Part shown: piece after piece, positions 15,320 to 44,584 of the stretch | Position numbering within the stretch: the stretch's first letter is position 1 | How the letters are laid out: each line of letters opens with the position of its first letter | Origin: Sphingobacteriales bacterium | Lineage (GTDB): Bacteria > Bacteroidota > Bacteroidia > Chitinophagales > CAIOSU01 | NCBI GenBank assembly: GCA_027483645.1 | Contig: JAIXUD010000006.1 | Location: 1-64,000 of the forward strand | DNA length: 64,000 nucleotides | Direction: 5' to 3' | Made by a program: the position numbers and the translations under genes | The notes under the pieces: generated by a model | Seen by the model: the letters and a program-made list of their open reading frames with translations, nothing else | Database searches by the model: none | Told to the model about the DNA's origin: nothing

Positions 15320-15350
15320 AGTCGATGGTCCACTGTCCATGGTCCACGGT
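15320..15350. repeat. Dispersed GTCCACGG/GTCGAC-family repeat, left arm
   Basis: Tract of GTCGATG/GTCCACTG/GTCCATG/GTCCACGG units immediately upstream of the minus-strand MFS start. It pairs as an imperfect inversion with 15411-15443. Confidence 0.75.
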
Positions 15351-15410
15351 TGTATAAGGTGATGGTTCCAAAGAAGTATTTTGTTACCGTTCTATGTTTG
15401 TTACAGTTTT

Positions 15411-15443
15411 TACCGTGGACCGTCGACCATCGTCCGTCGACTA
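15411..15443. repeat. Dispersed GTCCACGG/GTCGAC-family repeat, right arm
   Basis: CCGTGGACCGTCGACC and related units ending GTCGACTA. The terminal CTA is the reverse complement of the ilvE stop codon (15441-15443), so the repeat supplies the stop. It forms an inverted pair with 15320-15350 around about 60 bp. Confidence 0.75.
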
Positions 15444-37833: not shown

Positions 37834-37840
37834 TTTTTTG

Positions 37841-37870
37841 GTCGATGGTCCACCGTCCACGGTCAACGGT
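37841..37870. repeat. Dispersed GTCCACGG/GTCGAC-family repeat, left arm
   Basis: GTCGATGGTCCACCGTCC then ACGGTCAACGG, directly upstream of the upp start. Inverted partner at 38009-38038. Confidence 0.75.
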
Positions 37871-38008: not shown

Positions 38009-38038
38009 TGTGGACCGTCGACCGTGGACCGTCGACTA
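38009..38038. repeat. Dispersed GTCCACGG/GTCGAC-family repeat, right arm
   Basis: CTGTGGACCGTCGACCG then TGGACCGTCGACTA; inverted relative to 37841-37870. The final CTA (38036-38038) is the complement of the stop codon of the deacetylase-like gene, which therefore ends in the repeat. Confidence 0.78.
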
Positions 38039-39580: not shown

Positions 39581-40747
39581 TCAATACTTCCTCCCCTTCC
39601 AATCATACTTCTTAAACTGCGACTGAATGCCGATGCGTAGCACATAGTATGTGTGCAACAACTGCGAGGGCAGAAACCAAAGCAGCTCCTTACTTCGCCC
39701 GAAGAATGATGTAGCGTGTACCAGCATTATTAGCTCAGGCAATAGCTTACCTAGCAGCAATACTATAAACGGGATTAACATAAAGGGCTTGAAGCACATC
39801 CAAACACCGAACACTAGAATAGCCAACGCATACACATAGTAAAACGTAAGCACCGCCGTAAGCCGTGCATCGCCAAAGCCTGCCGCTTTACTTACCCAGC
39901 GCACCCGTTGTTGCCAGAAGGCTGCCCAAGTAGCAGTTGCTGGGGTGGTCACTATTGCTTCCTTGGCCTTTACAAAACCAGCACAGCCTGGGCGGTGGCT
40001 ATGGGCTTTTAGTAAGAACAAAATATCATCGCCGGTTGGGGTATTGTCAATGCCGGAGTACCCACCAATGGATTGAAAAAGCTTCTTCTCAAAAGCAAAG
40101 TTAGCCCCATTGGCCATGTGCGGAAACTTGAACCGCAAGCTACCAGCGGTAATAAACATAAGCCCCATGAGATCGAGACTCTGAAATTGCTGAAGCAGAC
40201 GAAGGACCAAAGACGAAGGACCATGGACCTGACTAAACGCTACTGGGCCGGTGAGTACTTTGTAGTGGTTAGCATCGTAGTATTGGGCGACGGTGTTTAC
40301 CCAATTAGCTCCCATCTCGCAGTCGGCATCGGTGGTAATGATGAGGTCGCCGGTGGCTTGGGCTATCCCGTAGGTAATTGCCGCTTTTTTGCCTGAAAGG
40401 TTATTTGGCAGCATGTATATGCCCAATCGGATTTGCAATCCGATTGTACCGAGCTGCGGATTTGCAATCCGCTGTACCACTTCGGCAGTGCTGTCCTCGC
40501 TGTGGTCGTCCACTACTATTATCTCCAATAAGTCCTTTCGGTAGTTTTGTGCCATCAGGCACTGCACTACCCGCTCAATGTTAGCTTCCTCGTTGCGGGC
40601 AGGTACTATTACCGTTACCTTGGTAAATGTTTGACCGTCTTGTTTTGGCTCGAACAAGGGCGTAAGTATCCACCCCCAAGCATAATACTGCATCAAGCCC
40701 ATGTATAGGGCCACCATGATGAGGGTAATGATTAGGACAGCTAGCAC
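39581..40747 (-). CDS. Family 2 glycosyltransferase with membrane segments
   Basis: 388 aa. One N-terminal helix (about 3-28), then the GT2 domain: VIVPARNEEANIERVV, VVDDHSED, TTDADCEM (DxD-like), PTGDD and QQRVRW, followed by three to four C-terminal helices. This is the layout of processive or lipid-linked inner-membrane transferases. Two stretches look like later insertions of non-coding repeats read in frame: about residues 92-112 (hairpin repeats at 40425-40472) and about 173-184 (GACGAAGGACCA repeat at 40196-40229). Catalytic motifs are intact, so it may still work. Confidence 0.88.
   Translation of the reverse strand: MLAVLIITLIMVALYMGLMQYYAWGWILTPLFEPKQDGQTFTKVTVIVPARNEEANIERVVQCLMAQNYRKDLLEIIVVDDHSEDSTAEVVQRIANPQLGTIGLQIRLGIYMLPNNLSGKKAAITYGIAQATGDLIITTDADCEMGANWVNTVAQYYDANHYKVLTGPVAFSQVHGPSSLVLRLLQQFQSLDLMGLMFITAGSLRFKFPHMANGANFAFEKKLFQSIGGYSGIDNTPTGDDILFLLKAHSHRPGCAGFVKAKEAIVTTPATATWAAFWQQRVRWVSKAAGFGDARLTAVLTFYYVYALAILVFGVWMCFKPFMLIPFIVLLLGKLLPELIMLVHATSFFGRSKELLWFLPSQLLHTYYVLRIGIQSQFKKYDWKGRKY
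40196..40229. repeat. Dispersed repeat inside the GT2 coding region
   Basis: CAGACGAAGGACCAAAGACG followed by AAGGACCATGGACC resembles the GTCCACGG/GTCGAC family found between genes. Here it is read in frame on the minus strand as part of the segment VHGPSSLVLRLL. Confidence 0.65.
40425..40472. repeat. Two adjacent GGATTTGCAATCC hairpins inside the GT2 gene
   Basis: AATCGGATT-TGC-AATCCGATT (40425-40445) and GCGGATT-TGC-AATCCGC (40456-40472) are perfect palindromes sharing the same TGC loop, 10 bp apart. They are read in frame on the minus strand as part of IANPQLGTIGLQIRLG, which does not look like normal GT2 sequence. Confidence 0.8.
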
Positions 40748-40762
40748 AGGGCAAAGATAATG

Positions 40763-40796
40763 GTTGGTCCACGGTCCACGGTCGATGGTCCACGGT
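40763..40796. repeat. Dispersed GTCCACGG/GTCGAC-family repeat, left arm
   Basis: GGTTGGTCCACGGTCCACGG then TCGATGGTCCACGG, 16 bp before the GT2 start codon (minus strand). Inverted partner at 40823-40852. Confidence 0.78.
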
Positions 40797-40822
40797 TTAT
40801 TGCGTTAATATGCAATTTTAAG

Positions 40823-40852
40823 CTGTGGACCGTGGTCTGTCAACTGTGGACT
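40823..40852. repeat. Dispersed GTCCACGG/GTCGAC-family repeat, right arm
   Basis: CTGTGGACCGTGGTCTG then TCAACTGTGGACTA, inverted relative to 40763-40796 with a 26-bp AT-rich loop. Confidence 0.75.
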
Positions 40853-40874
40853 ATTACCAAACACCAACGGGGCC

Positions 40875-44480: not shown

Positions 44481-44584
44481 CGAGCTGGAAGCTCGAAATT
44501 ACTAAGTCCTCGTTGGAAACGAGGACTAGCGAATACTCGTCCGCGCTTTTAGCGCGGATGCAATAACAGCGAGCTTCCAGCTCG
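44481..44584. repeat. Cruciform of three perfect palindromes between kinase and regulator
   Basis: Outer perfect 15-bp arms 44481-44495 and 44570-44584 (CGAGCTGGAAGCTCG and its complement) enclose two perfect hairpins: 44506-44526 (GTCCTCGTT-GGA-AACGAGGAC) and 44541-44557 (CCGCGCT-TTT-AGCGCGG). The three-way-junction layout fills nearly the whole 132-bp gap between two co-directional, functionally linked genes. Confidence 0.9.

Follow-up and report, generated by a model that had tools for sequence, protein, structure and literature searches.

Rickettsia palindromic elements (Ogata 2000, 2002; reviewed in PMC10969869) are the classic case of in-frame palindromes within functional genes. Enterobacterial repeat units also occur within ORFs (PMC2759123), and in-frame intragenic dimers of GTAG and CGTC REPs, which encode 20–30 amino acids, were catalogued in BMC Genomics in 2013 (PMC3733652). 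REPtrons are reported to be missing in some species that bear REPs (PMC3733652), and RAYT subclass 2.6, which is rich in Bacteroidetes, is reported to have atypical hairpins that are without GTAG (PMC6006769).

The locus considered here is in a 64,000-nucleotide stretch of DNA, the window, from a Sphingobacteriales bacterium (contig JAIXUD010000006.1, positions 1 to 64,000). Two repeats of otherwise intergenic type are present in one of its genes. The reading favored, with a probability of roughly 0.87, is that a REP doublet of RAYT type inserted in frame, and was tolerated, in a surface loop of a glycosyltransferase, and that a separate heptad array is in a loop whose length was already variable. 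The host gene and the motifs that bracket the REP segment are:

39581..40747, minus strand: gene for a GT2-family membrane glycosyltransferase, host of both repeats (388 aa, GTG start as listed)
40499..40510, minus strand: DDHS motif, residues 80–83, shortly N-terminal of the REP segment (D80, D81, H82 and S83 invariant)
40385..40390, minus strand: KK pair, residues 120–121, the earliest invariant residues past the REP segment in the alignment

The 388-aa protein matches Pfam PF00535 (Glycos_transf_2) with E=3e-26, and this domain together with its DDHS, DAD, GDD and QxxRW motifs places it in GT2. Its fold resembles that of the mannosyltransferase PcManGT (6yv7) and of hyaluronan synthase (E around 1e-13). 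Every column invariant in an alignment of 54 homologous sequences is retained (DDHS 80–83, KK 120–121, D140, D142, GDD 239–241, Q280, R281, R283 and W284), and neither repeat introduces a stop or a frameshift. The first-pass annotation had claimed both that two types of intergenic repeat are in frame within a GT2 gene and that the catalytic motifs are kept. Both claims hold, the repeats being exactly located, stop-free and above shuffle expectation. Orthologues in three congeners share 65% identity with the window protein. Comparison with them gives pN of 0.21–0.22 and pS of 0.74–0.85, the latter saturated or nearly so, for which reason no dN/dS value is claimed. The mean identity of the window protein to 77 outgroups, 0.375, is the same as that of its congeners, so there has been no acceleration. 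From these sequence comparisons the gene looks functional and under purifying selection.

The palindromic repeat is close downstream of the DDHS codons:

40421..40474, minus strand: REP doublet, encoding residues 92–109, QRIANPQLGTIGLQIRLG, on the coding strand; in the consensus orientation, plus strand, GCCCAATCGGATTTGCAATCCGATTGTACCGAGCTGCGGATTTGCAATCCGC (from the HMM and the genus layout)
40424..40446, plus strand: hairpin 1 of the doublet, with a 10-bp stem and 3-nt loop (CAATCGGATT TGC AATCCGATTG)
40456..40472, plus strand: hairpin 2 of the doublet, with a 7-bp stem and 3-nt loop (GCGGATT TGC AATCCGC)

The sequence GGATTTGCAATCC is exact at 40429–40441 and 40458–40470, and with up to one mismatch has 2 matches in the 64 kb against a shuffle expectation of 0.08. 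An HMM built from 16 other copies, and so trained without the window copy, matches 40420–40474 with E=7e-17 in the window and 9e-16 in 857 kb. Members of the family are present in all five genus genomes examined. Loci of the own genome and of four congeners have in common the layout TGCC....CGGATTTGNAATCCG....ACCGAGC.GCGGATTTGCAATCCGC. Doublets with equal 28–30 bp spacing and an ACCGAG-type linker are found in three of the congeners (G001–G003), and a related doublet in the other (G004). Perfect CGGATTNNNAATCCG sites number only 11 in the own genome, many of them paired 29–30 bp apart, and inverted doublets are found on C8 and C13 of this genome as well as in G002 and G003. Hairpin 1 differs from many copies in the genus by a paired swap, CATTCGG/CCGAATG having become CAATCGG/CCGATTG, so that its stem remains perfect. 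Both hairpins are perfect, and the predicted mRNA folding is strong (z −3.1). The genus consensus is without stops in five reading frames out of six, and single copies in two to five, so insertion of this repeat more easily keeps a gene open. (A second hairpin doublet within an ORF, at C13:30521–30561, was rejected because 306 hairpins are estimated to yield about 3 such doublets by chance.)

At locus L174 of the congener G002, inverted doublets of this REP family are on both sides of a Y1 transposase ORF. The ORF scores 86.3 bits (cut-off 80) against NCBIfam NF047646, the REP-associated tyrosine transposase, and matches Pfam PF01797 (Y1_Tnp) with E=2.5e-7. Since the doublets flank a RAYT gene there, the window repeat is a REP of a RAYT system. 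Consistent with this, the family consists of dispersed, mainly intergenic hairpins, in pairs and inverted pairs, that flank a Y1 gene in G002. No 5′ GT[AG]G tetranucleotide is present at the hairpin foot; in the consensus, the hairpins come after TGCC and GAGC. In the own genome, the assembly of which is 97.85% complete, no RAYT cognate to the window REP was found, none of its 7 PF01797 matches being flanked by that repeat. Several of its Y1 genes are flanked by different hairpins of their own, and two of its Y1 proteins that are 41–45% identical to the G002 RAYT also carry other hairpins. It was probably RAYT activity that made the insertion in the GT2 gene.

Some further features of these systems may be mentioned. 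At least four different RAYT-like genes of the own genome (L039, L041, L042 and L043) are each near their own hairpin family, and another REP doublet in the window, at 44505–44558 (AGTCCTCGTTGGAAACGAGGACT...TCCGCGCTTTTAGCGCGGA), resembles the hairpins around the gene of L041. The RAYT ORF of G002 (L174, 1436–2194) continues without a stop on its upstream side across one inverted REP doublet, and the translation of that doublet, ITNPMLGAFGLQIRMG, is in the frame that the REP segment of the window GT2 uses. In L001 (1451–1760) and L004 (1451–1720), inverted REP doublets ~150 bp apart surround a shared motif, ATGGG.CAAAAGCGGCC. These elements are MITE-like and may be deleted RAYT units. The occurrence of that motif between the C8 and C13 doublets was considered as a remnant of a RAYT start and discarded, its match to G002 being too short.

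The effect on the protein is apparent from comparison with the three congeners. The window has DDHSEDSTAEVV, then 18 REP codons, then IYMLPNNLSGKK, where the congeners have DDHSDDSTAAIA, LGLNVK and TITLPEGLQGKK. As the flanks align without gaps, the REP replaced ~6 codons for a net gain of 12 residues. The DDHS-to-KK stretch of the window protein has 42 residues, that of each of the three congeners 30, and that of the family's two other genera 33–34, which would allow an ancestral segment of 6–10 codons. The state without the REP is presumably that of the congeners, at 65% identity. Among 80 homologues neither the REP-encoded sequence nor an equally long gap between helix and strand is present. 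Their DDHS-to-KK stretch ranges from 30 to 44 residues, and the 42 of the window falls inside this range because the long homologues are mostly extended after strand β-3. In the AlphaFold2 model of the window protein (mean pLDDT 91.9, GT2 fold) the sole segment below 50 is residues 98–105, which sit inside the REP segment between a helix (87–95) and a strand (108–112). The congener model has a helix at 86–92, a short turn and a strand at 96–99, with no residue below 50. From these models, residues 92–109 are predicted to close the helix, pass through a disordered loop and open the strand, and so to be mostly a floppy surface loop. The REP stems are perfect despite synonymous saturation between the species, which argues that the insertion is probably recent on the window lineage, relative to the species split.

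Parts of the first-pass annotation have to be modified here. The ranges it gave, residues 92–112 and 173–184, are close, the palindromic segment being 92–109 and the heptad tract 173–184. Its pair of hairpins are real palindromes, but they constitute one 52–54 bp REP doublet instead of two separate hairpins. Its view that the repeats interrupt the GT2 domain is right as to the REP being in frame, but ~6 codons were replaced, with 12 amino acids gained overall, and there was no simple interruption. That the palindromes are a repeat insertion in a working gene is borne out: they are dispersed, transposase-associated and absent from the 80 homologues, and the gene appears to be under purifying selection. 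In the structure prediction it called for, AlphaFold2 gives a confident GT2 fold except for residues 98–105.

The other repeat is of a different nature:

40196..40231, minus strand: degenerate heptad array, residues 173–184 (QVHGPSSLVLRL), in a variable loop leading into helix 180–205
40766..40857, no strand assigned: inverted pair of heptad arrays (40766–40793 with 40830–40857), intergenic, upstream of the GT2 gene, the usual site of heptad repeats

The sequence GACGAAGGACCA is present at 40198–40209 and 40212–40223, and with up to one mismatch has 4 matches in the 64-kb window against 0.06 expected from shuffling. What was first described as a GACGAAGGACCA-type tract is real, and can now be refined to a degenerate 7-bp tandem array, GGTCCAT-GGTCCTT-CGTCTTT-GGTCCTT-CGTC on the coding strand. 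The 1.66 Mb sampled from the own genome contains 49 arrays of at least three head-to-tail 7-bp units; shuffled sequence, made from the first 857 kb, contained none. Each of the five genus members has GGWCC-type heptad pairs; of the other genera searched, nearly all show them at a level no higher than that of the control. No published description of this genus-wide repeat was found. Further inverted heptad pairs, which could form long hairpins, are between or beside genes at 37840–37867 with 38010–38030 and at 15327–15351 with 15411–15428.

In 68 of 81 aligned sequences the loop from TGPV to FQSL has 19 residues; it has 23–24 in congeners and 26 in the window. The window thus has 2–3 residues more than congeners and 7 more than the family, and as the loop was already longer in congeners, the net addition by the heptad tract is small. 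The claim that it is an added segment is to be limited accordingly. Of the congeners, three have the GT2 gene; their loop is 4–5 residues above the family norm, and in two of them its DNA is unrelated. In the third, G004, GGTCCACAGTCGATGG on the non-coding strand of the same loop of the orthologue fits the heptad consensus. (In this orthologue, L047 3474–3487, heptad-like GGTCCACAGTCGAT(GG) is on the non-coding strand in the loop equivalent to the window tract.) Heptad DNA may have entered the 173–184 loop repeatedly, or a single time and been altered afterwards; the variation in length and the differing DNA there indicate that the loop tolerates insertions. Homologues with unrelated DNA in an equivalent segment had been named in advance as evidence against the repeats having added protein segments. 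Two congeners have such DNA at the heptad loop, but the REP segment is absent from all 80 homologues.

Deep placement within a gene is exceptional in the sampled part of this genome (the window and further stretches, 1.66 Mb, 39% of the genome). It was found for one of 7 REP HMM matches and one of 49 heptad arrays, both in the GT2 gene. The other six REP matches are intergenic or outside a confident gene. Though ~86% of the sampled sequence is in long ORFs, these contain just 5 of the arrays, and 4 of the 5 lie no more than 138 nt from the nominal start; for the array at 138 nt, the likely true start is downstream of it. (An array at C15:64927 was discarded as intragenic since it lies ahead of the probable start of an ORF resembling diaminopimelate decarboxylase, the family being named by eye.) The rarity that had been claimed therefore holds within the sampled genome, but in-frame REP insertions are documented elsewhere (PMC3733652, PMC10969869).

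Could the extra segments be ordinary loop variation, resembling intergenic repeats by chance or codon convergence? The second loop is length-variable in the genus, and unrelated insertions are present there in other homologues (L102, L103 and L087), as this would predict. However, a 55-bp REP match with E=7e-17, conserved spacing and linker, and perfect stems effectively exclude it for the REP, and membership of a set of 49 arrays, with none in the shuffles tested, makes it very unlikely for the heptad; overall it is scarcely credible. That the gene is a decaying pseudogene gathering repeats, its open frame a coincidence after a recent insertion, is improbable, though a little less so. Relaxed constraint would suit the presence of two otherwise intergenic repeats no more than ~200 bp apart within one gene, but it is at odds with the retention of all invariant residues, the lack of acceleration and the strong pN/pS contrast, and with an uninterrupted frame and a confident GT2 model.

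Somewhat less unlikely, but still unlikely, is that the REP segment has been kept as useful, either as a new loop or for hairpins in the mRNA that would adjust how the enzyme folds or is translated. The hairpins are still perfect in the mRNA, and in the model the segment contributes to a helix and begins a strand. Recent insertion, however, equally predicts perfect hairpins, the loop is predicted to be disordered and is shared by no homologue, and the authors of PMC3733652 argue that such insertions are tolerated, not selected. The REP segment probably has no special function. A wider proposal is doubtful, if the best placed of those not preferred: that two unrelated repeat families extended one enzyme, with the 173–184 loop a recurrent site of heptad landing or expansion, and that repeats repeatedly reshape protein loops in the genus, REP DNA supplying parts of a helix and strand of the GT2 core.

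On the favored reading, that of a tolerated REP insertion and a separate heptad array, a REP doublet that serves a RAYT system of the genus as its terminal repeat unit would have inserted between helix α-2 and strand β-3, replacing ~6 codons with preservation of frame. A mostly open repeat and a length-tolerant surface loop would have let the enzyme survive. Separately, a second loop, of variable length in the genus, carries a degenerate 7-bp array of a normally intergenic type. The locus offers a clean Bacteroidota example of a transposase-associated REP doublet that has become part of the coding sequence of an apparently functional enzyme, the REP-less state being seen in three congeners. 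It thereby provides a model, open to test, of the way in which palindromic repeats add protein segments or replace them.

Like the intragenic REP dimers of PMC3733652, the window doublet is in frame in a gene of known function, belongs to a mostly intergenic family and is apparently tolerated. Unlike them it is a Bacteroidota REP without the GTAG tetranucleotide, has 18 codons in place of ~6, and is in a GT2 host with a second type of repeat in the same gene. With the REPtrons of RAYT/TnpA_REP, in particular those of subclass 2.6 (PMC6006769), it shares inverted hairpin pairs flanking a transposase gene, in G002, and dispersal of copies in the genome. It differs from them in that no cognate transposase was found in the window genome and copies are few (the 11 perfect palindromes). 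Rickettsia palindromic elements are likewise in-frame palindromic repeats in functional genes and compatible with the host fold, but they are ~150 bp and encode one conserved peptide in many genes, while the window REP, at 52–54 bp and in one gene of the sample, is not of that type. The heptads are comparable to the TAACTGA heptameric intergenic repeats of Beggiatoaceae (PMC4679880), which are also head-to-tail 7-bp units between genes. Those of the window differ in being GGTCCAT/CGTCCTT, degenerate, present in all genus members examined and with one copy coding. The principle is already published for other bacteria; what the present case adds is Bacteroidota, and replacement instead of pure insertion.
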